Virus record (IMG/VR): IMGVR_UViG_3300005613_000183
Location: 1 to 38,648 of that record
Source of the DNA: a virus
Direction: 5' to 3' (one strand)
Length of the DNA stretch: 38,648 nucleotides
Positions 3,410-38,648 of the stretch are shown here, one piece after another. Within the stretch, counting starts at the first letter, position 1; every line of letters starts with the position of its first letter. The translations under genes were made by a program, and so were the position numbers. A model generated the notes under the pieces. It was given only the letters and a program-made list of their open reading frames with translations, had not been told where the DNA came from and made no database searches.

Positions 3410-6400
3410 TTAATTTCCTAATTTTATCACTTGTGGTTTACCACCCTTTTTTGCTTCTATAGTTGCCTTGCCAGCCTCAGTAGACCATATGCCATTTAGC
3501 AGTGCCTGTGGCAAATCGCTTTCATCCAAAAGAAATATAAACTCACCTTGCCTATTTATAACCCCACCCCTAGCATATGCTATCATGGCTTCTACAACTC
3601 TTGATATCTGGACACCACCCGGAACACCAAACACCCCAGGCCCCCATTTAGTTAGTTCTTTTCTCATCCTTTCCCAACTACCAGTTTCTATAATATCATT
3701 AATACCTTGCGCTAGCTTTGTAAATACTTGGACAGGGGCAGGTAGCCCAGCACTGCCTTGGTATTCTCCTAAAAGTTTATCTATAATTGGCGTAAGCCAT
3801 ATTTCAGCAAATGGGACAGGTGGCCTCCTCCAAGACCATATCTCTCTATTAGCTAATCTTTTTGCTGAAGTAGCGAATACTGATGCGACAGCAGCAAATC
3901 TTATTATTTGCCATAAAGCCTTTGCCTTGCTATCAGGTGGAAGCCCTGTTTTCCCAGCAATTTCTCTAGCTGTATTAATAAACTCAAATGCAAATGTTTG
4001 GAAAGGTGCTATTGTTTTTGTAAGCAAAGATTTTAAGATTCTAGGTTTATCTTCATCATTATACATAGACTGTGTTTTGCCACCGCCATCAGATGCAAAA
4101 TTCTTCAAGGCTTCTCCTGTTAGCCCTGCCTGTTGACCTGATATTTTGGCAGCCTGTATTGAGGCACCTGTCAAAATTTTTTCTATCTGTTCTGTAACCA
4201 ATGCACCTACATCCTCTGCTATATCTAAAGGAGACCTATATATTCTAACATTTTGGCCTATTAAAGCCTGAGCATCTTGCTTTGTAACCCTACCTTGCTT
4301 ATCTGATTTAACTATGAATGAATAATAATCTTCAGAGGTTTGCTTCCTAACTTTTGGGTCTAACCATTTTATAAAACCTTTAGTTGTATTTATGGCTCCA
4401 TACTTTAAAACTGTAAGAGAAACTGAAGACGTCTGGGTAAATATATTCCAAGAGAAGTTAAAAGGAAATACTGCAAGGTTTCTTAACCTGTTTAAAAATC
4501 TAATCCCCTTCTCCAACTTAGCTGGTAGCTTAAAATTCTTATCAAAAGAAATTTTAGTACCTGCGAAAGCCTCTGCATTCCAATCTGCAAGAGCATTTGC
4601 TGTATCATTAAAGCCCATAGTTTCTAACTGCTGTATAAAGGCCTTGTTATTTTGTATTATAGAAGTGTTAAATATATCTTTAGAAGCTGTTACTATATAA
4701 TTTTGTGCAAGTTCGATGGCAGATAAAACTCTATCATTATATCTTATACCAGTAGTCCTTGCTAATTCTCTAGGGTTAAATGGTTTATTCGGCCTAACAT
4801 AGTCTGGCAAATCAGGGGCTGATTGAACTTCTTGAGGAACAGTATCTTTTAAAAAAAGTCTTTCCCAAACAGTAGTATCTCTTAAAACTTCAGGGCTGTA
4901 ATTGCTTCTAAAAGGGATAGGCTTTTGGTTTCTCATCAAACGTACTTCATTTTGCTCATCCAAAATTGTGTTATAAAACTTTCTTAATTCCATAGCCTTT
5001 TTAACTATAGATATGTCCTTTGTTATGTTTGAAATGGCAGACCTTTTAGCCAAAACTGTAGCTGTAGATTTCAAATCTTCATTGCTGATAGCCCTTAGCA
5101 CATCATTAATAGCTATATCAGTTTTAGACCCAGGTTTAACTTTGCCTATTATAGACCTCAATAATATACTTTTTTCTTTTATATAACCTATCTTTTGAAT
5201 AGAAATATCTCTAGTTCTAAATAAAACAAATTTCTCCAAAGGCCCTGCTTGCCCAGGTATTTTAGCTCGTTGTGCAGCGGTTAAAGAACCATCCATTTGT
5301 TGTATTAACCTTGTTATATCTGTTCCGCCACCAAAGAATTGTTTTACATCCTTAAAGCTTTTCCACTCAGAAAATTCTATAGGAACAAAAGTACCAGCTT
5401 TTCTAAGAGCCACTGATACTTTACCACTCTTAGTCGCTCTTATAGCTATGCCTTCCTTTTTAGCTGTGGCCCTTAGTTGTTTCTTTAGAGAAGCAATTTC
5501 TTTGTTAGCCTCTTTCGCTGTTATCTTCCCGGACAGCCTTTTACCATTTACAACCCTCATCTGTTTCTGTATTTTTCTAATATTAGATTCTGCAGGAAGT
5601 TGTATACCCTGCAAGAATTCAGAGTGTTTTCTAAAAGCTGGGCTGTCTTGTAATACCTCTGGTTCAGATATCTTAGCCCCAGTAGATACACCTAGCACAG
5701 CTTTGGGTTCTACAACTTTAACCTTTTTTATATCAGTCATTATTTTACTAGGATTAGTCTCAACATCCCAATGGTTGCCCTCATCCCAAAATACAGAACC
5801 TGTTTTTGGATTTTTAAAACCAATAGCCCCATCGCTAGGCCTAGCTGCAACCTGTTCCCAAGCTTGAATAATAGCATCCAACTTAGCTTCTTTTCTTAAG
5901 TCTACCTTAGTTCCTGCCCCATGTGTTATCTCGCCTGCGTCTAAATGTCCAGCCTCAGTGCCACCTGTTATCGTTATCTCTATCTTATTAGTGTTAGCAA
6001 GCTCTATAATTTCACCAAGAGTAACAGGGTTAATCCCCTCTAATCCAGTTTGTTTACCACCTTGGCCTATAGTTTTTAAAGGAATACTTTTACCAACTGT
6101 AGATGATACTGAGACCAACCCACCCTTAGTGGGTTTACCTGTAGCGTCAATGCCAAGAATACTTTTAGCTTGTGCCTCCGTAAGGGACTTAGCTCCTTCT
6201 TTGGCTATCTTTGCTGGAATTTTAAAAGCAGTATCCAATGTAGCTTTAAGCGCTATATCTTCAGCTGGCAATGTATTCATATATTTAGTTGTGTGATATA
6301 ACAATTCTAGTTCTTGTTCGCTTTTTGCAACAGAAGGAATTAACGCTGTTAGTTTTGGGTTTTCTGTAACTGTTTTCTTAAACAGTTCTAGAGAACCTGA

Positions 6401-11892: not shown

Positions 11893-12534
11893 TTATGCTG
11901 TACCTACCGGGAACCATACCTCTTGCCCAGTATTGCCTCCAATACTACCACTACCCCCAGCCCTTCTTGATAACAACCATTCATCTTGAACAGGCATCGT
12001 TGCTGTACCTTGTTGGGAATCTACAGACATTGCCTTTGGCAACCTGATAGTTTCATAAGCAGATAACCACTGCTCAGCTACTGTCCTTGAGTTTGTTATG
12101 GCATAAGCCATATTAGCTGCTAAAAGTGTTGCAAGTGCTGTAACAAATTTAGGAAAGTATGATTGTGGATTTTCATTTCTATAAGTGTATTTTATTTTTA
12201 AGCTTGCAGTATCAGATAAAATCCTTTCACCTTCAACTTTAAATATAGCTGAAGATATATTAACAAAGTTTATCTTTAACATATCTGAAGGTTTTTGGTA
12301 TACCACTGTCATATTATCATCTGTAAAGGCTGGTGTTTCATCAACTGTAGCTAAAGCTACCCTTTTCTGCGCAAAAGACCAAGGATGTTCACATAATATA
12401 TCTTCTAGTGTCTCATCGTAAATAGCATTACATTCCCTTGCGTTTACTGAATTCTCAGTTAAGGATGTTATTCTTTTAGAACCTAACAAAGATAAAGCCC
12501 GATTACATATTCTAACCTCTGATAATGATGCCAT
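11893..12534 (-). CDS. Tail tubular protein A (T7 gp11-like gatekeeper)
   Basis: A 213-residue protein. The N-terminal pattern (V-R-I-C-N-R-A-L-S-L-L-G, then N-A-R-E-C-N-A-I-Y, then C-E-H-P-W-S-F-A) is characteristic of podovirus tail tubular protein A. This protein forms the ring between portal and nozzle. The C-terminus is Gly/Ser-rich. It overlaps the upstream O-antigen polymerase/ligase-like gene by 23 bases, so its translation is probably coupled to that unusual neighbour. Length is near the usual size of about 200 residues. Confidence 0.87.
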   Translation of the reverse strand: MASLSEVRICNRALSLLGSKRITSLTENSVNARECNAIYDETLEDILCEHPWSFAQKRVALATVDETPAFTDDNMTVVYQKPSDMLKINFVNISSAIFKVEGERILSDTASLKIKYTYRNENPQSYFPKFVTALATLLAANMAYAITNSRTVAEQWLSAYETIRLPKAMSVDSQQGTATMPVQDEWLLSRRAGGSGSIGGNTGQEVWFPVGTA

Positions 12535-13684
12535 CTTTTTTCTCCTTTTCTAGTATAATTATCCAAATTAAAAGCAATATACCGCCTGTAGTGTGCATCA
12601 AGAAATTTACACCACTATTTAGTAAGCCTACTGATATTGCTATAACAGCCAATACTGTTACCTTGCTATTAAATATCCCCTTAAATAAACTAACTATATA
12701 CCCTAACATTATTGCCAAGCCGATTGCCCCTTGCTCAACTAACAATTGCAGATATTCATTATGTGCATATAACCATCTGTGAATAGCGTGAGGGCTTTGT
12801 ATTGCAACCTTATGTAGTGTTGGGAAAAACATCTTAAAACTTCCAAGGCCCCAACCTACAACTGGTTTCTTTGGAACTATATGTTCCCATATCTCGCCCC
12901 AAACTTCAAACCTAGTTTGCTCAAATAATAAATTTCTAAACACAACTAGATATGCTATGCCAATAGAAAGTAACAAAGAAACTAAGAAAAAGGCATCTCT
13001 TTTTTTAAAATACAATTTATATAGTAAGAATAAAACTATTGCCACAAATGCCGGAACTATACCGCCCATGCTTTTAGAAATACATATCCCTATTGCTATA
13101 AACGGAATGCAGTATATCCATTTTTTTCTAAAGAATGCAGGTAAACATAAGGCAAGAAAAGCCCCTGCCATGTTAAGATTGCTTAAAAATCCTGTAGTTA
13201 CATATTGTCCCGGAACTAATGAAACCTGTAAAATAGAAGGGATAATGTTCCCCTTTGTGCCATTAGGTAAAGCAAGAAACCATATCCCATAATAATTTAG
13301 TATCATAAGCCCTGTTTGCACCAAAGCCATAATGCACATAGCGTTTAGTACTATGGGAATATACTGTTTCTTTAGTTTGCATATTGATACTTGAATGAAC
13401 ATAATGTAGGTGAAAGAATAAATCAAGGCGGTGAAGGCTGTAATATTAAACCCGATAGCAGTTCTAATAATACCCCAGAATAAAAACAATTTAAGCCAAG
13501 GGTTTTTAATGTAAGCAAAGCCCATAAATGTAATACCTAGAAGCATAGATAGTATTACCTTATTGGCCCTGAAGTCAGTGGAGAATACACCCATACCCAA
13601 GACCATACCAATAATGCAAAGGGAAAAGAGGAAGGCGGTCGCCCGCCCCCCTCTAAAAAATCTAGTTGAAATAAAATTCACCAT
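12512..13684 (-). CDS. O-antigen ligase/polymerase-like membrane protein (Wzy_C family)
   Basis: A 390-residue polytopic protein with about 10-11 hydrophobic segments. The Wzy_C region lies at about 255-325: R258-F-E-V-W262, then P-V-V-G-W-G-L-G-S-F (274-283), then A-H308-N309-E-Y-L. H308-N309 followed by nine residues and G319-A-I-G322 fits the H-[NSQ]-x9-G-x-x-G signature reported for O-antigen ligases. The Arg and His are the residues expected to be essential. Such proteins act at the periplasmic face on undecaprenyl-linked glycans. WaaL ligates them to lipid A-core and Wzy polymerises the repeat units; sequence alone does not separate the two. It overlaps both neighbours by 23 bases and so is built into the late operon. 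The ribosome site is weak. Likely role: seroconversion or receptor masking. Confidence 0.8.
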   Translation of the reverse strand: MVNFISTRFFRGGRATAFLFSLCIIGMVLGMGVFSTDFRANKVILSMLLGITFMGFAYIKNPWLKLFLFWGIIRTAIGFNITAFTALIYSFTYIMFIQVSICKLKKQYIPIVLNAMCIMALVQTGLMILNYYGIWFLALPNGTKGNIIPSILQVSLVPGQYVTTGFLSNLNMAGAFLALCLPAFFRKKWIYCIPFIAIGICISKSMGGIVPAFVAIVLFLLYKLYFKKRDAFFLVSLLLSIGIAYLVVFRNLLFEQTRFEVWGEIWEHIVPKKPVVGWGLGSFKMFFPTLHKVAIQSPHAIHRWLYAHNEYLQLLVEQGAIGLAIMLGYIVSLFKGIFNSKVTVLAVIAISVGLLNSGVNFLMHTTGGILLLIWIIILEKEKKDGIIIRG

Positions 13685-14315
13685 AATAAAGTTCTAAATC
13701 ACCTTCTGCTGTAACAACATTATCTCTCCAAACCTCAAGCGTAACAATATCCCCTGCTGCTAAAGAATCAAAATCTGTAGCTGGTGTTAAGGTTACTAAG
13801 GTTGGCGTTGTTGCTGTACCTGCTAATGCTACTGGTGTTTGCCCTGTTGCTGATGAATCCCAAGAAGTACCACTTGTGTTGACATAAACTTGGAAGTCAA
13901 CTTGGTTCGGCGTTGTTGAACTTGACTCATCGACAAAAACCTTGAAAGCCCCACCTGAATTATAATTCTGTGGGACTCTAAAAGTAACTTGTGCTGGTGT
14001 CGTCTCCCCATCGGCCCATACAATAGCTAGTAATTCATTGTCAGTTTCTAGGCCCGGTTGTGTTGAACTTGATAGTGAAGATACTGCATCGGGTAACAAG
14101 AAGTCATTTACACCAAACTGAACTGATTTCTCATTGCTACCAATAACAATAGTCTTTAGGGAACTGTCCCCACTACCTGTTACATCCCCTGTGAAATTTA
14201 CCTGTGATGCAAAGCTGCCTCCTACGACTGTGCCATCTACTTGAACTTCTAGTTCAGCAAAAGCAGGATAGGCAAAGAACGCAAGGAGCAATAAACTTAA
14301 AAATATTCTTTTCAT
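13662..14315 (-). CDS. Secreted beta-rich protein upstream of the O-antigen gene
   Basis: A 217-residue protein. Residues 1-20 are a signal peptide (K-R, Leu/Phe core, likely cleavage after A-F-A). The mature part is Ser/Thr/Val/Asp-rich and predicted to be all beta. It contains a region (about residues 105-200) that reads like a polysaccharide- or virion-binding beta sandwich. There are no cysteines. It overlaps the O-antigen polymerase/ligase-like gene by 23 bases, so the two are likely co-translated. It may work with that protein in the periplasm or on the surface. A virion decoration role is an alternative, given that the capsid genes lie just upstream, but the signal peptide argues against it. 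Confidence 0.65.
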   Translation of the reverse strand: MKRIFLSLLLLAFFAYPAFAELEVQVDGTVVGGSFASQVNFTGDVTGSGDSSLKTIVIGSNEKSVQFGVNDFLLPDAVSSLSSSTQPGLETDNELLAIVWADGETTPAQVTFRVPQNYNSGGAFKVFVDESSSTTPNQVDFQVYVNTSGTSWDSSATGQTPVALAGTATTPTLVTLTPATDFDSLAAGDIVTLEVWRDNVVTAEGDLELYYGEFYFN

Positions 14316-29953: not shown

Positions 29954-30490
29954 ATGAAGAAGTACCAAATAATATATGCTGACCCGCCGTGGAAACAAAC
30001 CAAAGGTGGACTACGGAAATGCAGACCCAACCAAAATAGAGATTTGGATTACCCCACAATGGACATGACCAGTATTAAGACAATCTTTAATAAGTTAGAT
30101 GCCCCCATATTATTTGTTTGGACAATTGATAAATACCTACACGAAACAGAAAAACTATTTAGTAATTATAAACTCCACGCAAGAATTGTTTGGGATAAAG
30201 AAAATGGAATAGCTCCTGCATTTACGGTAAGATATTCCCATGAATATTTGCTATGGTTTTATAAATCACCAATGTTACCAATAGCTAAAGAACTTAGGGG
30301 GAAATACACAACAATATTAAGAGAGAAGTCTACAAAACACAGCAAAAAACCACTCATAGCAAGAAAAATGATAAATGATTTATACCCAAACCAAACAAAA
30401 TTAGAACTATTCGCTCGTCAAAAGACCGAAGGCTGGGATGTGTGGGGTAATGAAGTGGAGAGTGATATAGACCTAACCAAAGGAGAGTGA
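29954..30490 (+). CDS. MT-A70 family DNA N6-adenine methyltransferase
   Basis: A 178-residue protein with the catalytic motif D10-P-P-W13 preceded by I-I-Y-A, an F-V-W-T segment and H-E-Y-L-L-W-F. The C-terminal K-L-E-L-F-A-R-Q and G-W-D-V-W-G-N-E close the SAM-binding fold. Phage MT-A70 proteins methylate adenine, commonly to protect DNA from restriction. No matching restriction enzyme is present. GGGAGG precedes the ATG. Confidence 0.87.
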   Translation: MKKYQIIYADPPWKQTKGGLRKCRPNQNRDLDYPTMDMTSIKTIFNKLDAPILFVWTIDKYLHETEKLFSNYKLHARIVWDKENGIAPAFTVRYSHEYLLWFYKSPMLPIAKELRGKYTTILREKSTKHSKKPLIARKMINDLYPNQTKLELFARQKTEGWDVWGNEVESDIDLTKGE

Positions 30491-30493
30491 GGG

Positions 30494-30958
30494 ATGGATG
30501 GTAGCGATGAGATTGATTTGGTTGACTATGTAAAAGTGATTGTAAAACGCAAAGGTATAATCTTAAGTATTATAGCAGTAGGTGTGGCGATAGCTTTTAT
30601 CACGCACTTTGATAACGTAGATATATACCAAGCGATAGGCCATTATAAAGGCCGACAAGTAAACAAACAATTCATCGAAGAGGCTAAGATTAAATATCCT
30701 CAATCTACAATAGAAGGTATTGCCAAAACAAAAATAGTTATAATTAAAGAAATCCACCAACAGCCTGATGTTGCAATAGAAAGATGCCATAAGATTGCTA
30801 AAGAATTACGCTTAAAAAAGATAGCAGATATTTCATATCCAAAAACAATAGATTCAAACAAAATGAAAATAGGAACTACAATTTTTCTATTTGCATTCTT
30901 TGGTATCTGTATAGGGTTTATACAGGAAAGATGGTATAGAAATAAGGGGGTAAAATGA
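30494..30958 (+). CDS. Wzz-like chain-length determinant, miniature
   Basis: A 154-residue protein. The N-terminus (E-I-D-L-V-D-Y-V-K-V-I, then K-R-K-G-I-I-L) is the classical Wzz/polysaccharide co-polymerase start, leading into a membrane helix (about 21-39). A periplasmic helical region (about 40-122) and a second membrane helix (about 126-144, with F-G-I-C-I-G-F) follow. Family members set the chain length of O-antigen made by Wzy and are usually 300 or more residues; here the periplasmic part is cut to about 80. This fits a competitor or altered-length regulator of host Wzz. It is coupled by ATGA to a 32-residue membrane protein. Confidence 0.7.
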   Translation: MDGSDEIDLVDYVKVIVKRKGIILSIIAVGVAIAFITHFDNVDIYQAIGHYKGRQVNKQFIEEAKIKYPQSTIEGIAKTKIVIIKEIHQQPDVAIERCHKIAKELRLKKIADISYPKTIDSNKMKIGTTIFLFAFFGICIGFIQERWYRNKGVK

Positions 30959-31053
30959 AAAGGAAATGGACTTTCGGGGTAGTAGTATTTAATGTAACTT
31001 TATTATTGATAGCGATTATATGCGCAGTAGTGCTGTATCATACAATTTTCTAG
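30955..31053 (+). CDS. Single-pass membrane microprotein
   Basis: A 32-residue frame overlapping the Wzz-like stop (ATGA), with GGGGG as ribosome site. A short basic start (K-R-K-W) is followed by one membrane helix (about residues 7-28). It overlaps the next microprotein in another frame. Confidence 0.55.
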   Translation: MKRKWTFGVVVFNVTLLLIAIICAVVLYHTIF

Positions 31054-31190
31054 GTATAATATTGCCTATACTAGCTTTCACGTTAGCATCAGTCTATGGC
31101 TATTGGCCTAGAAAGAAGTTTATATTTAAGGTAGGGGTATCTATTTTGATAACAACTATAATAACAGGAGTGGTGTTATGGAGTTATTAA
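31020..31190 (+). CDS. Two-pass membrane microprotein
   Basis: A 56-residue frame with two hydrophobic stretches (about residues 10-26 and 38-53) separated by a basic W-P-R-K-K-F-I-F loop. It overlaps the 32-residue gene upstream and the ACP start downstream. Such overlap suggests coupled translation within the Wzz-like/ACP group. No ribosome site is obvious. Confidence 0.5.
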   Translation: MRSSAVSYNFLGIILPILAFTLASVYGYWPRKKFIFKVGVSILITTIITGVVLWSY

Positions 31191-31408
31191 ACAAAAAAGT
31201 CTTAGGTATTATCCAATATGATTTAGGGATTATAGTAAATTCATTGGATGAAAAGATTGAGTTTGAGTCTATCCAAGAAGTTGAACTTGTAATTTCATTA
31301 GAAGAAGAATTTGAAATATCAATACCGGATGAGGATGTAGATTTGTTTGGAACTGCTAACGATATAATAAAATATGTAAGGGGGAAGTGTGAAGAGAAAT
31401 CCGCTTAA
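31178..31408 (+). CDS. Acyl carrier protein
   Basis: A 76-residue acidic protein of standard ACP length. Residues F29-E-S31-I-Q-E-V-E-L correspond to the D-S-L-x-x-V-E-L motif where Ser carries the 4'-phosphopantetheine arm. The following L-E-E-E-F-E-I-S-I-P-D-E-D is the usual recognition helix and loop. Asp is Glu and Leu is Ile in the core motif, but the Ser is kept. It could carry acyl groups for lipid or glycolipid modification, or act as a host fatty-acid synthesis decoy. GGAG stands before the ATG. It closes the Wzz-like group. Confidence 0.8.
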   Translation: MELLNKKVLGIIQYDLGIIVNSLDEKIEFESIQEVELVISLEEEFEISIPDEDVDLFGTANDIIKYVRGKCEEKSA

Positions 31409-31517
31409 CCCAGTTAGAGGATTCCAGAGATTCAAGACTAACAAGTATAAGAATAAATCTTGTATCTGCCACCAGAATCATAAACACGATAGTGTAGGGG
31501 GAGCTGTAACCATATGA
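31389..31517 (+). pseudogene. 5' fragment of a DUF1064-like nuclease gene interrupted by a homing endonuclease-type ORF
   Basis: A 42-codon frame from a GTG inside the ACP end, with GGGGGA before it. The product (basic, K-Y-K-N-K, then C-I-C-H-Q-N-H-K-H-D-S) resembles the N-terminus of phage DUF1064-type nucleases. It ends at a TGA that overlaps the start of the next ORF (ATGA). The matching C-terminal part appears at 32354-32434, while the central catalytic part of the family is missing. I infer insertion plus deletion. Confidence 0.5.
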
Positions 31518-32353
31518 AAAGAAATAGAGATAAAAAAGGGAAATTTTTGAGAGAACTTCCTAAATTTACACCTTGTAAGATGTGTGGACTAAATATCAAA
31601 TATTATTTAACTATTACTAATAAATTTTGTTCTTCCAAATGTTATCTTGAATACAGGAAGGCACATCCTGAACTTTATCCAGCGGTTCTTATGTCCGATG
31701 AAAAGAAAGAAAAATGGATAGAAAAAATGAACAAATTGCGCTTAACTAAAACATTCAAACACAAACATTCTATAGCTACTAAAAAAGCTATGCAAAGAAT
31801 AGATGTCCAAAAAAAGATTCATGGGAAAAGACTACCTTGGACAGATAAACGGAAAGCACACCAGTCTGATATTCTTGTCGGCAAAAGGCCTAAAAACTTA
31901 AACTATTTTATGAATAGTTTTTTGAACAAAAGCCACCATGGATGGATAGATTTTGGCGAAGGGAAAAAGTTTTATATGCGGTCTATATGGGAAAGGAATG
32001 TTGCGAGATATTTTGAATTGTTAAAAAAGAACAAAGAAATAAAAGAATGGGAATATGAACCTCAAAGGTTTTTCTTTGAAGGTATAAGTTTTGGAAATCG
32101 AACATATTTACCAGATTTTAGGATAACTGAAAATAAAGGATACCAATATTACGTCGAAGTTAAAGGCCATATGGATAAAGATTCAAGAATTAAGCTAAAA
32201 CGTATGAGAAAATATTATCCAAACATTGAAGTTCAACTATTAGATAAAGAAAGGTATGGAGTTATTAGCAAAGCTGCTCCTATAATTAAAAATTGGGAAT
32301 GGGAACAATATTCTAAAAGAGTGAAATATTATGTTAAAAAAGGACGAATGTAA
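31514..32353 (+). CDS. Homing-endonuclease-like protein with zinc finger and PD-(D/E)XK domain
   Basis: A 279-residue basic protein. Zinc finger C21-x2-C24...C39-x3-C43 near the N-terminus is followed by short NUMOD-like helices (about 70-125). The nuclease domain (about 150-250) has W-E-R-N-V-A-R-Y-F, Y-E-P-Q-R-F, then Y-L-P-D-F-R and Y-V-E-V-K-G, the D...E-x-K set of a PD-(D/E)XK fold. It sits between two pieces of another nuclease gene, the usual behaviour of a homing element. In-frame sequence continues beyond its TAA into the old gene's C-terminus. Confidence 0.7.
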   Translation: MKRNRDKKGKFLRELPKFTPCKMCGLNIKYYLTITNKFCSSKCYLEYRKAHPELYPAVLMSDEKKEKWIEKMNKLRLTKTFKHKHSIATKKAMQRIDVQKKIHGKRLPWTDKRKAHQSDILVGKRPKNLNYFMNSFLNKSHHGWIDFGEGKKFYMRSIWERNVARYFELLKKNKEIKEWEYEPQRFFFEGISFGNRTYLPDFRITENKGYQYYVEVKGHMDKDSRIKLKRMRKYYPNIEVQLLDKERYGVISKAAPIIKNWEWEQYSKRVKYYVKKGRM

Positions 32354-32434: not shown

Positions 32435-32658
32435 AAAATAAATAATGTCAAGCCGATAAAAGCACCCCTACCACATTCTTCAACTGTGTCCTTGCTAAAG
32501 TAATCACACCATTTACCCATAGCAAAACCTAAGGCAAGCGCTCTAACAACAAGTAATATCCAAGATAAGTTACCCCAAATAGCCAAAGGGAGCAGAGATA
32601 AACCTATAGCCAAGCCATGATGAAAAAAATTGTCTTTCCCTTTATTTATTATCCCCAT
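32413..32658 (-). pseudogene. C-terminal half of a phage membrane protein split by an HNH gene
   Basis: An 81-codon frame with hydrophobic stretches at about 15-45 and 64-79. G-K-D-N-F-F-H-H-G, A-M-G-K-W and D-T-V-E-E-C-G-R-G-A continue naturally from the segment at 33214-33447, which ends L-T-T-Y-W-D-S-I. Together they resemble one membrane protein found in other phages, with L-T-T-Y-W-D followed by a G-x-D-N-F-x-x-H-G motif. The start ATG overlaps the end of the HNH gene. It may still be translated as a separate half. Confidence 0.62.
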
Positions 32659-33157
32659 TTTTAGCTTTCCATTTATTACTGCAAGAAATGCTACAATTTT
32701 TTACTTTTCCACTTCTATACGCCCAAAATAATTTGTTGCACAACAGACATCTTCTAATTTCATATTGTCTCGCTTGTCCGTCATTTGTTCTTTTTACAAT
32801 TATTTCTTTAGTATTAGAAGGCACAGGCAATACACTAACATACCTATATTTTCTTAGTTCTAATTTCAAGTGTTCCCCATTATTTATAAATAACTTCAAA
32901 TTTTCAATTCTGTTATCTAACTTGTTACCGTTGATATGGTGGACAACTTCTTTATTAGTGAGATATCTACCAAGATGTTTTTCCATAACCAAGATGTGTT
33001 CATAAATATAAAATCCTCTTGCTTTAGCTTTTGGGTGGCCTTCAGCTCTAACAGACTTATATCCATTTGAAAGTCTAGTGCCGCCGCCCCATCTAGGAGA
33101 ATTTTCCCCAACACTAATTCCCTTTGCCCATCTTCCTTTACTATCTCGTTTAACCAC
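32642..33157 (-). CDS. HNH homing endonuclease
   Basis: A 171-residue protein. An N-terminal N-S-P-R-W-G-G-G-T segment is followed by E-H-I-L-V-M-E-K-H-L-G-R, then E-V-V-H-H-I-N-G-N-K-L-D-N-R-I-E-N-L, the HNH active site. A C-terminal zinc finger (C-L-L-C...C-S-I-S-C) closes it. It starts with GTG after AGGAGG and has its own promoter in the short upstream gap. It splits a membrane-protein gene without any visible intron structure, so it is a free-standing selfish gene. Confidence 0.85.
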   Translation of the reverse strand: MVKRDSKGRWAKGISVGENSPRWGGGTRLSNGYKSVRAEGHPKAKARGFYIYEHILVMEKHLGRYLTNKEVVHHINGNKLDNRIENLKLFINNGEHLKLELRKYRYVSVLPVPSNTKEIIVKRTNDGQARQYEIRRCLLCNKLFWAYRSGKVKNCSISCSNKWKAKNGDNK

Positions 33158-34352: not shown

Positions 34353-34679
34353 TTATTCTATATCACTAATGTTAGGATTTTCGTAAGCATCTCTGTCCTT
34401 AGCCTTCTTACCTCTTTTAATTTGTCCAATTATATACCTTCGTAAGTGTTCCTTTACCCATTGGGCATCAGTATATTTAGCTATCTTCTCTGGTATCTCA
34501 GGTGTTTCCTCTAAACTGATAAACTCTGGGTTGTCAATCGTTTCTGTGTTGCTATGTATATAAACATAATCGCTTACATACTCAGCTATCTTTTCTTGAG
34601 GTATTGCAATGGTAATATCCACTGCAAATACTGAGAAACTAAATACCGTTAAAAATAAAAATGCTACCAATTTTTTCAT
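34353..34679 (-). CDS. Secreted protein of the lysis region
   Basis: A 108-residue protein. Residues 1-19 are a signal peptide (K-K, Phe/Leu-rich core, cleavage near V-F-A). The mature part has an acidic Glu/Pro-rich middle (about residues 50-65) and a basic C-terminus. It is periplasmic by inference. It could be an outer-membrane-side lysis partner, but there is no lipobox Cys. AGGAGG precedes the ATG. Confidence 0.6.
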   Translation of the reverse strand: MKKLVAFLFLTVFSFSVFAVDITIAIPQEKIAEYVSDYVYIHSNTETIDNPEFISLEETPEIPEKIAKYTDAQWVKEHLRRYIIGQIKRGKKAKDRDAYENPNISDIE

Positions 34680-34955: not shown

Positions 34956-36509
34956 TTAGTAAATAGTTGAACCATAAATTGTCGTATCATATAATACAGT
35001 ATCATTTGATACGTTCATTGTTATATTAACAGTTCTATCCTCAGTCATTGCTATTTCCTGTGTATTAACATCGTAATCTGGATGAGATACGGTAATTATG
35101 TGAAAGTTATTTCCATTGCCATCTGACCATTGGGTGTAATTACCATTGCTTGTTTCTTCCTTCTCAGCTAAGTAAATGCTATCTTCAACTAACCCCTTAA
35201 CCTGTCCGTTCTCATCAGTTAAGAAATTATGTTCTTCATAAGGGAAATCTCTAGTACCTACTGTTTTAACTAATTTAGTTCTTATATTTACAGAGGCATT
35301 TTCTAAAGGTGTTGTTCCGTCTGGTTGGTAAACTGTTATATCACATTTACGAACGTGTAAAAATGTTCCTTGCCCTGACCAAGTCTTGTTAGCTACTGAT
35401 ATATTAGTATATGTTTGTTCACCATAAAGTAAGACTGTCGGATCATAAGCCATCAACCCTCTTTGTGCATTTTCAAAAGTACAAGACTTAATTAAATATA
35501 AACCATTAGCATATCCTAACCAACTATACACACCACCATCACAAGCAGTAAAAGTTGTATCTTCATAAACTACCATTGGTTGGTTTTGTGTCCTTAACCC
35601 CCAGTCTTTAGTTCTACTTGTATGGTATTGTGAGTCAGTCATCTTTAAACCAGTATTATAATGCCTACCATAATCATCAGTATTTTGGAAAGTAAAACCT
35701 TTTAATTTTAATGCGTGAACGTGCATTATAGAATATTCTTCTAAGTTATCTATTGTCCAATCTTCAAATGTCCATCCTGAATAATCAGCATAATACCAAT
35801 ATACAATACCATAACCATTAGTATCTGAAACGGTTATATGCTTAAAAGAATGGGCCACATTACTTCCGTCATAACTTGATGTAGCTGCACCATAAAAATA
35901 TAATAAATATCCTGTTGAATAAGTAGTGTTTCTAAATATAACATAGTCTAAGTTCCAAGGAGTAGTATCATACATATAACAATACATTGACCGATAGTTT
36001 TCAAAAATAGCCTCATTACCTTCTGATTGTTCACCTATTATAGTTCCATACATTAATACATAAGTTCTTCCATAGGTAGGGGAATTGCTAGTAAAATCAA
36101 ATACGCAATTATCAGCTAATAGTAATGTAGCACCTGAGTTGATGTAGAAAGTATAATAAGTGCTTGCAGAATTACTCATCTCCTGGGCCCAAGTAGCACC
36201 TTCTTCCCTTTGCCAAGTTTCACCACTATTGACACTTGTTCTTACATAGTTCTCACCTGATTGTAGTTTAAGCGTATAAACATAACTTCCAACAGAACCA
36301 GTTCTAGTTATATAAGTACCAGCAGGTACAGCATCGGTTACTTCTTTAGCTACTAACCATTGATAAGCGTCATCATCAGTAAACGTACCAAAACCAGTTG
36401 TAGAAAAAGAATGATATTCCCCAGCATCAGTATATGTAAATGATACTGCTGCAAAACAAGGAATACTCCATAAAATAAATAGTGTTAATAATGTTAATAG
36501 TTTTTTCAT
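34956..36509 (-). CDS. Large secreted beta-helix-like protein
   Basis: A 517-residue protein. Residues 1-20 are a clear signal peptide (K-K, Leu-rich core, likely cleavage after C-F-A; no lipobox). Residues about 90-375 are rich in short Asn/Gly/aromatic turns, as in right-handed beta-helix proteins. Residues about 390-490 resemble a Peg/carboxypeptidase-regulatory Ig-like domain (V-Y-Q-P-D-G-T-P-L-E-N-A-type turn). The gene follows the large fibre-like gene by two bases, as tailspike genes do. The signal peptide points to export instead, perhaps surface display or surface glycan binding. Confidence 0.65.
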   Translation of the reverse strand: MKKLLTLLTLFILWSIPCFAAVSFTYTDAGEYHSFSTTGFGTFTDDDAYQWLVAKEVTDAVPAGTYITRTGSVGSYVYTLKLQSGENYVRTSVNSGETWQREEGATWAQEMSNSASTYYTFYINSGATLLLADNCVFDFTSNSPTYGRTYVLMYGTIIGEQSEGNEAIFENYRSMYCYMYDTTPWNLDYVIFRNTTYSTGYLLYFYGAATSSYDGSNVAHSFKHITVSDTNGYGIVYWYYADYSGWTFEDWTIDNLEEYSIMHVHALKLKGFTFQNTDDYGRHYNTGLKMTDSQYHTSRTKDWGLRTQNQPMVVYEDTTFTACDGGVYSWLGYANGLYLIKSCTFENAQRGLMAYDPTVLLYGEQTYTNISVANKTWSGQGTFLHVRKCDITVYQPDGTTPLENASVNIRTKLVKTVGTRDFPYEEHNFLTDENGQVKGLVEDSIYLAEKEETSNGNYTQWSDGNGNNFHIITVSHPDYDVNTQEIAMTEDRTVNITMNVSNDTVLYDTTIYGSTIY

Positions 36510-36511
36510 GT

Positions 36512-38648
36512 TTAGTTTTTAAACTCCGTAAACCCATTATAAATACTTATTGTATTATCGGCTTTTGCATTATCCCATTCTGCTGTTACTGAAAAATCAC
36601 AAACACCAGTTGTATCTATCGCACCAGTACCACTAACGACAGTTTCGTGGTCATCTACAACAAGGTGGATATGATATGCCATTGTTCCACCAACACCAAC
36701 TGTTCTTATTGTATAATGACCGCTCATGTGCCAATCAGCATTAGTTACATTTCCGATAGCTGGATTAAAAGTTACTAATGTAGTTCCAGCCAATTTTAGT
36801 CGTATTGTGATATCATCCGCAGCTGAATTATTAGAAAGAACTCCATCGACAAAACCCTTTATTACATTACCAACCTTTAAATCATTAGCAGTAATATCGT
36901 TTTCATATAGTGTAGTTTCTGTTATGGTATTAACTACAGTTGTTGTAGAAGTAATTACATCGGAAGTCCTATCTATTACCCTTTGTGTTTCTACATTAGT
37001 AAGATACATTCTATCATTATCAAATTCAAATGTTCCTGCTACTGGTGTTCCAAGTAAAGAGCCAGGGTCTTGTATGGTAAGACCATGTGAAAAATCAAAT
37101 CTACCAGTAGCTGGATGATAAGTAAGCGCCCCTTCCGTAGTACTTCCTAAAAATCCTAAAGCGTAATCAGTATCTGTTCCATCCCCTATATAAACTACCC
37201 CACCAAGGGGAGTTATTGTTAAGTTACCATCACCATTTACATAAAAATCGCATTCATCTACACCGTCTGTATGAGTAAGGCGTAGTTGTGGATCAGTAGT
37301 AGTAGTTATATCGATAGTATTGTTAAACCTATGCCCCGTTGTAGCCCCATAGTCCATATAACCATCAGCTAAACTATCTATATATTCATTATCATCTGTT
37401 TGAGTAAATGACAATTTATCTGAAATACGAAATGGTATGCTTCCTAATATTAAATCAGCAGAAGCATCAACAACAAATGCGTTTGCTTGGTTAGCTGTTT
37501 CTACCCTAAAATCATCACTAGCTGTATTACCACCGCCATCATTAACTACTAAACCAGAAGTAATGGTGGATTGACCTGATGTTGCGCTTGAGACTGTTAC
37601 CTTTCTATTCGTGGTATCTACAGTAAATACATCATTAGCATCAACATCTTGTCTTACTAAAAAAGCTTCTGTACTTGTAACATCTATAACTGTCGCACCT
37701 TGAAGTGTTGTTATTCCTGCAACAGATAAAGCATTAGTAATTGCACTTGTACCACCTGCAGAAGTCCATCCATTTCCATCTAAAGTTTGATTCGCACCTG
37801 TAATACTTGTTGCAAAAACTAAAGTATTAGCGTTTACTTGACCTGAAAAATAAGCATCTTTCCATTGTGAAGTTGGCATAGCCCCTATATCATAAGTGTC
37901 ATTAGCACTTGGGATTACATTACCAGTAATGGTAGCTGCACCAGAAGCAAATGTTCCTGTAGTAGATATAGCATCATCACCAAAATTAGCAACATCATCA
38001 GTTGAATTGAAAAAAAGTGTACCTGCAGATGAAAGGTAGGTATCGCCAGAAGTTGTGGTGCCTATAACCAAATTCCCACCAGTATTATTTATTGCTAATG
38101 AATCATCATTATTGTTTTTCTCAATTGAAGCTACTTTAGATGCCCCATCGTAGAATGTAAGCCCCGTATGTTCAACACCAGTTTGGTCGGCATTGTCTAT
38201 GCGGATTTCTGTTAAAGCCCCTTGGTCTTTTTCTATATGAAGAAGTCCACTATTTATTTTAAGATTTTCTGAAGTAGTTAAACCTGCTGTAGAAATTGAT
38301 GAGTCAAAAGATACATTACTAAAACCAACAAAAGATAAAACATCGGTAGTAGTTACATAATTAATATATCCACTATTCTCAAATGCTTCATCTGTAAAAT
38401 ATAAAAAGACATTATTAGATTGAGCTAGTAAACAAAACCCATAATCTATAAACCCTAATCCAAATGAACCTGCAAATGATATTCTTGGATAATGTCCTAC
38501 ACCTACAACTTCCCAATCAGAAAAAGTTATACCTGTAGTTATCCCTGTAACAGTAGTATTTATTGTTGTAGTTTGGGCAGAAGAATCTAATGTTAGTATA
38601 TTCCTTTGTGTGCCACCGTCATTTATAGAAAATATTATATCTTTATCT
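36512..38648 (-). CDS. Large tail-fibre-like protein, C-terminal part (begins across the joint at 709)
   Basis: The frame is open from the window edge down to 36512 and joins in phase with 709-1 for about 909 residues in total. The visible part is repetitive and beta-rich, with G-D-T-Y and T-D-T-D-Y-A motifs typical of phage fibre shafts. The C-terminal 140 residues (V-G-N-V-I-K-G-F-V, then W-H-M-S-G-H-Y-T-I-R-T, then F-S-V-T-A-E-W) look like a jelly-roll tip domain common to phage fibres. With a signal peptide at its N-terminus, the protein mixes fibre architecture with export. A Met at 38071 is not the true start. Confidence 0.75.
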   Translation of the reverse strand, partial: DKDIIFSINDGGTQRNILTLDSSAQTTTINTTVTGITTGITFSDWEVVGVGHYPRISFAGSFGLGFIDYGFCLLAQSNNVFLYFTDEAFENSGYINYVTTTDVLSFVGFSNVSFDSSISTAGLTTSENLKINSGLLHIEKDQGALTEIRIDNADQTGVEHTGLTFYDGASKVASIEKNNNDDSLAINNTGGNLVIGTTTSGDTYLSSAGTLFFNSTDDVANFGDDAISTTGTFASGAATITGNVIPSANDTYDIGAMPTSQWKDAYFSGQVNANTLVFATSITGANQTLDGNGWTSAGGTSAITNALSVAGITTLQGATVIDVTSTEAFLVRQDVDANDVFTVDTTNRKVTVSSATSGQSTITSGLVVNDGGGNTASDDFRVETANQANAFVVDASADLILGSIPFRISDKLSFTQTDDNEYIDSLADGYMDYGATTGHRFNNTIDITTTTDPQLRLTHTDGVDECDFYVNGDGNLTITPLGGVVYIGDGTDTDYALGFLGSTTEGALTYHPATGRFDFSHGLTIQDPGSLLGTPVAGTFEFDNDRMYLTNVETQRVIDRTSDVITSTTTVVNTITETTLYENDITANDLKVGNVIKGFVDGVLSNNSAADDITIRLKLAGTTLVTFNPAIGNVTNADWHMSGHYTIRTVGVGGTMAYHIHLVVDDHETVVSGTGAIDTTGVCDFSVTAEWDNAKADNTISIYNGFTEFKN
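38533..38648. repeat. Right copy of terminal direct repeat
   Basis: Matches 1-116 with a single T (38642) for C (110) difference. See the left copy. If the genome is circularised here, the unit length is 38,532 bases. Confidence 0.9.

Follow-up and report, generated by a model that had tools for sequence, protein, structure and literature searches.

Among the closest described systems, the Salmonella OpvAB operon (STM2209-STM2208) is similar in architecture, in that a one-transmembrane (TM) peptide and a short two-TM protein of the Wzz family are encoded together. OpvB, a 221-aa Wzz-family protein without a coiled coil, is a competitor of WzzST and depends on the 34-aa OpvA; the two proteins are co-transcribed, are located in the inner membrane, and together shorten the O-antigen and block phages (PMC4652898, PMC3350482). 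The seroconversion unit of phage D3 (iap, acetylase, wzy-beta) encodes Iap, a 31-aa TM peptide, and a 386-aa O-antigen polymerase; Iap reportedly affects the interaction between Wzz and Wzy, and Arg and His residues have been reported as essential in Wzy-beta (PMC4815439). In phage epsilon15, serotype conversion involves a 392-aa Wzy_C-family protein encoded next to the tail-fibre gene, and the phage also carries a 66-aa two-TM inhibitor of the alpha-polymerase.

We analyzed a 38.6-kb virus record (hereafter the window, 38,648 nucleotides in full), which carries a 116-nt direct repeat at its ends (1-116 and 38533-38648) and is a closed circle or a terminally redundant assembly. The minus strand encodes the late structural proteins, and the plus strand holds replication and recombination genes (a DnaD-like loader, Erf and an exonuclease). 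The locus of interest belongs to the early/accessory operon of this podovirus-type phage and is placed near the end of the plus-strand operon, between an MT-A70 methylase gene and a Holliday-junction-resolvase-like gene:

29954..30490, plus strand: MT-A70-type DNA adenine methyltransferase (PF05063, 1.6e-14; phrog_359, 8.9e-39), ending 3 nt before the mini-Wzz gene
30494..30958, plus strand: mini-Wzz, a 154-aa derivative of polysaccharide co-polymerases (PCPs) (Pfam Wzz, PCP matches at its ends, Shine-Dalgarno of -9.1 kcal/mol)
30955..31053, plus strand: 32-aa single-TM peptide (one strong hydrophobic segment, Shine-Dalgarno of -11.9, ATGA overlap with the mini-Wzz stop)
31062..31190, plus strand: membrane microprotein, likely of 42 aa from a TTG, called as 31020-31190 (56 aa); an uncertain gene, judged by start-site strength
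31178..31408, plus strand: acyl carrier protein (ACP), 76 aa (PF00550, phrog_5934, alignment to solved ACPs)
31389..31517, plus strand: 42-aa ORF that continues the chain past the ACP (Shine-Dalgarno of -11.2; spacing of -20 nt to the ACP end and -4 nt to the gene that follows)
31514..32353, plus strand: Holliday-junction-resolvase-like / DUF1064 nuclease (phrog_190, 1e-11), downstream of the chain

The ORFs at 30494-30958 (154 aa), 30955-31053 (32 aa), 31020-31190 (56 aa) and 31178-31408 (76 aa) are all present and overlap or abut. The initial annotation had read them as one coupled unit acting, together with a distant WaaL/Wzy-like gene, on lipid-linked surface glycan, and had stated that it knew of no described system with this combination. 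That statement is too strong, since D3, epsilon15 and OpvAB cover most of the logic; the part without precedent in them is the ACP. These systems also differ from the window. OpvAB is bacterial and not phage-borne, has the reverse gene order and a larger periplasmic part, and comes without an ACP. The D3 genes are clustered, in a temperate phage without a mini-Wzz, whereas the Wzy gene of the window lies about 17 kb from mini-Wzz and on the opposite strand, so that the small peptide of the window is not close to the Wzy gene as it is in D3. In epsilon15 the inhibitor adjoins the polymerase, and neither a Wzz-like protein nor an ACP accompanies it.

In the 154-aa protein, about 85 periplasmic residues separate TM1 (about residues 21-39) from TM2 (about 126-144). 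Pfam Wzz (PF02706) matched residues 5-47 with an E-value of 3.3e-8 and 34.2 bits against a cut-off of 25.5, so the protein does match a PCP profile, and the NCBIfam Wzc and WzzfepE models gave a weak match over the same stretch. In pairwise tests against the PCPs of E. coli K-12 (WzzB, WzzE, FepE and Wzc), the N-terminus reached z values of 5.0 to 7.9, while the other TM proteins of the window mostly remained at or below about 2, with one at 3.4. Short PCPs turned up when 384 Omnitrophota genomes were searched, in some cases beside sugar-nucleotide genes. Against four of the Omnitrophota PCPs (275-333 aa), the N-terminus of mini-Wzz gave z values of 12.7 to 15.0 and the C-terminal TM2 gave 4.1, 9.2, 2.8 and 8.4, Omnitrophota being the only group scanned broadly for PCPs and the E. 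coli comparison the main outside control; TM2 showed no significant similarity to the E. coli PCPs. By hhalign, the N-terminal match to the Omnitrophota proteins covers 43 columns at 40% identity (E 1.8e-6). The motif DEIDLxxYVKVIVKRK is near-identical between them, with the run YVKVIVKRK identical in mini-Wzz and one Omnitrophota PCP (L307).

Unlike these relatives, the phage protein is about half as long and lacks the periplasmic helical hairpin; the large periplasmic domain with its hairpin or coiled coil is missing, and the middle of about 85 residues has no similarity to any PCP middle region compared. With both ends matching PCPs and no similarity in between, mini-Wzz is, as judged by sequence, a PCP pared down to the two membrane ends, with about 85 residues between them. 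These comparisons show it to be a genuine PCP derivative, not a full PCP, and bear out its earlier description as a shortened chain-length determinant without most of the periplasmic domain. An AlphaFold model of mini-Wzz from one sequence (pLDDT 47) was unusable and was set aside. PCP controls from Acidobacteria and Verrucomicrobiales were not clean, the chosen ORF often not being the PCP, and were not relied on.

Start-site strengths were read on a scale with a background median of -0.4 kcal/mol and a best 5% of -5.8. They were good at 30494 and 30955, and also at 31178 (-7.0) and 31389. No Shine-Dalgarno was present at ATG 31020 (-0.2) and a weak one was found at the in-frame TTG 31062 (-3.7), which makes the TTG the better candidate; it may well be the true start of the called 56-aa microprotein, giving 42 aa. 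Codon usage was coding-like for the Wzz-like gene (0.215) and the ACP gene (0.295) and not coding-like for the 32-aa (-0.18) and 56-aa (-0.03) ORFs, with a score that is biased by hydrophobic peptides. Neither the 32-aa peptide nor the 56-aa/42-aa microprotein had a family or a homolog in profile searches and about 290 fetched loci. The 32-aa peptide showed no similarity to Iap (z about 0), neither it nor the 56-aa protein gave any sequence signal as a homolog of Iap or the epsilon15 inhibitor, and the 32-aa peptide gave none as a copy of TM1 of mini-Wzz. Both the 32-aa peptide and the 42/56-aa protein resemble Iap, OpvA and the epsilon15 inhibitor in size and TM count only. The fifth ORF (31389-31517) is rich in Lys and Arg, with two Cys and three His, and had no family match and no homolog in the about 290 fetched loci. 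Of the four overlapping or abutting genes, then, those of 154, 32 and 76 aa are well supported, whereas the 56-aa gene has a start without a Shine-Dalgarno and the chain runs past 31408.

Outside viral contigs, the nearest relatives of the structural genes were phage stretches in Omnitrophota MAGs. One of them (G061:C27, L104-L106) has a terminase 54%, an MCP 42% and a portal 39% identical to those of the window, in the same gene order. Another portal, 32% identical, lies inside a 174-kb contig (G197:C33, L107-L109), and a further portal relative lies inside a 109-kb contig (G170:C3, L110-L112); the location of these two on Omnitrophota contigs of more than 100 kb suggests prophages of that phylum. 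A Wzy_C-carrying phage fragment was binned with Ca. Aadella gelida (Omnitrophota), and its metagenome number is the same as that of two relatives of the window (L002 and L008). HTVC010P-type Pelagibacter phages are also related (portal 37%). Because related phages lie in Omnitrophota genomes, the host is likely, though not proven, to be a member of this phylum.

A single unit of the four genes together with the Wzy-like gene was not supported. Like the microproteins, mini-Wzz had no homolog among the about 290 fetched loci, and no phage ACP was found there, the ACP query matching only bacterial ACPs of Omnitrophota MAGs. In a family search, Pfam Wzz and PP-binding were absent from 45 and 36 related records, mostly fragments of the structural region. 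BLAST of the four-gene unit and of mini-Wzz against 50,697 phages returned nothing, and single-protein scans of viral contigs for close relatives of mini-Wzz, the ACP and Wzy returned only one contig, for Wzy (L002). Given that the related records are mostly fragments, the missing co-occurrence is weak evidence, which counts against the unit and weakens it without killing it. Since no phage or relative searched has a mini-Wzz homolog, no selection on the arrangement is visible. Closely spaced genes are the rule in this operon (3 nt or less at 13 of its 23 junctions), so overlap or coupling is not special to these four genes; with the fifth ORF continuing the chain, the unit has no clear edge. 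Promoter and terminator scans gave nothing exceeding shuffles.

One could argue, then, that the neighbours are unrelated accessory genes, each with its own host target, with no pathway common to the Wzz-like protein, the microproteins and the ACP. We consider this unlikely, but of the alternatives it survives best. It accounts for the general tight spacing and for the lack of co-occurrence in any relative searched, and it agrees with the phage ACPs retrieved by tblastn, which were remote and located among unrelated hypothetical genes, as well as with acpP being a known accessory gene of phages and prophages (PMC8224337). It sits less well with three membrane proteins in a row, the first of them a PCP derivative, and with an ACP and a PCP both touching envelope synthesis, which is suggestive; moreover, the relatives that span the early region are few.

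The reading we put first, tentatively, is that mini-Wzz may act on host Wzx/Wzy glycan assembly as a decoy or short-chain regulator, in a manner comparable with D3 Iap and OpvAB, with the ACP as a separate accessory gene. It is the most economical one because of the precedents set by OpvAB, D3 Iap and the epsilon15 inhibitor, and the phage probably disturbs surface-glycan assembly. The proposed interference with host Wzz becomes more plausible, short of proof, as both TM regions resemble Omnitrophota PCPs. The membrane partner, the change in glycan length, the gain for the phage and whatever the peptides contribute are inferred rather than observed. In such a scheme, mini-Wzz would associate in the inner membrane with the host PCP and/or the polymerase through its TM regions and would then act as a decoy or a regulator for very short chains, the 32-aa peptide being a plausible Iap/OpvA-like helper. 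The lipid-linked surface glycan would be shortened or disorganised during infection, much as O-antigen is altered by D3 Iap and OpvAB, which could benefit the phage, e.g. against superinfection or through easier release of progeny. If true, phages would have independently reached the trick of OpvB (also reported for Iap), acting on the polymerase complex via a mimic of the chain-length regulator, here a mimic stripped to two membrane ends that appears fitted to a barely studied phylum. Mini-Wzz would also offer a small natural means of finding out through which of its parts a co-polymerase interacts with Wzy.

The distant WaaL/Wzy-like gene does exist, in the late structural module:

11893..12534, minus strand: tail-tubular / head-completion-like gene, conserved in relatives and used as positional anchor, downstream of the Wzy_C gene
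12512..13684, minus strand: Wzy_C-family (Wzy/WaaL/O-OTase-like) membrane enzyme, 390 aa (PF04932, 2.1e-8; 34.5 bits against a cut-off of 31.7)
13662..14315, minus strand: signal-peptide-like protein, 217 aa (signal-peptide rule), next upstream of the Wzy_C gene, with which it overlaps and pairs

The enzyme is homologous to the epsilon15 Wzy_C-family protein (z 9.8). All of 13 homologs keep its Arg258 and His308-Asn309, which match in kind the Arg and His residues reported as essential in D3 Wzy-beta. The enzyme has no solved relative by sequence, and a fold search with a Wzy model (pLDDT 67) gave no meaningful match. In 12 viral contigs besides the window, three of which have identical Wzy proteins, the tail-tubular gene directly follows the Wzy_C gene; in two MAG contigs (L091 and L092), the enzyme gene is similarly placed beside structural genes. 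With a home-made signal-peptide rule and loci that are not independent, a signal-peptide gene was found at the site in 10 of 10 deduplicated Wzy+ loci and in 4 of 97 Wzy- loci (Fisher 2.8e-11). The mature parts of the signal-peptide proteins are unrelated in several Wzy+ loci. On a tree built from the neighbour gene, the Wzy label has to change three times or more, so the pairing is not accounted for by common descent alone. It is this late pair, and not the early four genes, that forms the conserved context of the Wzy_C enzyme.

The order signal-peptide gene then Wzy_C gene recurs within the structural modules of diverse podoviruses (window 11893-14315, minus strand; L002, L008, L009, L142, L154, L158, L171, L172, L175, L210, L091 and L092). 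In L210, an HNH-endonuclease gene (5064-5621, minus strand) lies between the two; it is similar to the HNH-endonuclease gene at 32642-33157 of the window.

These results also bear on a second alternative, in which mini-Wzz would serve the phage-encoded Wzy_C enzyme as its dedicated chain-length partner, a phage Wzy/Wzz pair replacing host polymerisation to give a phage-specified short glycan. Both halves are in one genome, and the homology to the epsilon15 serotype-conversion protein and the invariant counterparts of the D3 residues reported as essential speak for it. We nevertheless find the pair improbable: the genes are in different modules besides being far apart on opposite strands, a Wzz match occurs in no other Wzy+ relative record (mostly fragments), the Wzy_C gene has a different and consistent partner in the signal-peptide gene, and the ends of mini-Wzz resemble host-type PCPs. 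When mini-Wzz is read as a decoy or short-chain regulator, the Wzy_C enzyme has a late function of its own, with an exported protein as its partner. The recurring pair would mean either late surface conversion or phage-encoded protein glycosylation. In a very speculative version of the latter, the phage would glycosylate its own exported late protein, Wzy_C acting as O-oligosaccharyltransferase for the upstream signal-peptide protein while mini-Wzz and the TM peptide(s) keep host lipid-linked glycans short as donors. We know of no description of phage-encoded protein glycosylation of this type.

Finally, the 76-aa protein is a predicted carrier, as had been proposed. PP-binding (PF00550) matched it with 23.1 bits against a cut-off of 20.8, the phage ACP family phrog_5934 matched with 6.3e-9, and Ser31 lines up with the attachment serine of solved ACPs, in a motif that is degenerate (ESIQ instead of DSLD); the acidic helix II is kept. 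It is a small accessory ACP like the acpP of phages and prophages (phrog_5934; Roseobacter prophages), described as an accessory gene in the latter (PMC8224337), from which it differs in the ESIQ motif, the lack of fabF/fabG neighbours and the lack of a close phage relative. Position is the only link between the ACP and the glycan proteins, and most likely it is an accessory gene in its own right, serving host acyl metabolism, and is in the same operon by chance. That the ACP and the membrane proteins modify or sequester acyl chains for lipid A or phospholipid, with the Wzz-like protein only a membrane scaffold, is very unlikely: the attachment serine, the acidic helix II and the overlap with the membrane microprotein gene would fit, but the motif is degenerate, nothing co-occurs in the relatives searched, and no lipid-type acyltransferase, ketosynthase or AcpS gene was found among the subset of ORFs scanned.

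Elsewhere in the early region, copies of the MT-A70 methylase with 67-69% identity occur in phages that otherwise differ from this one (L220:358-966 and L221:8001-8564), a sign of module exchange; used as bait for the early region, the gene retrieved these two as its closest matches, different phages without Wzz or ACP. Among the late genes, Sec signal-peptide-like starts were seen on several structural- or fibre-like proteins (1435-1884, 13662-14315, 34353-34679, 34956-36509 and a gene crossing the record ends, with its start near 705 on the minus strand), although virion proteins that assemble in the cytoplasm do not usually begin in this way.
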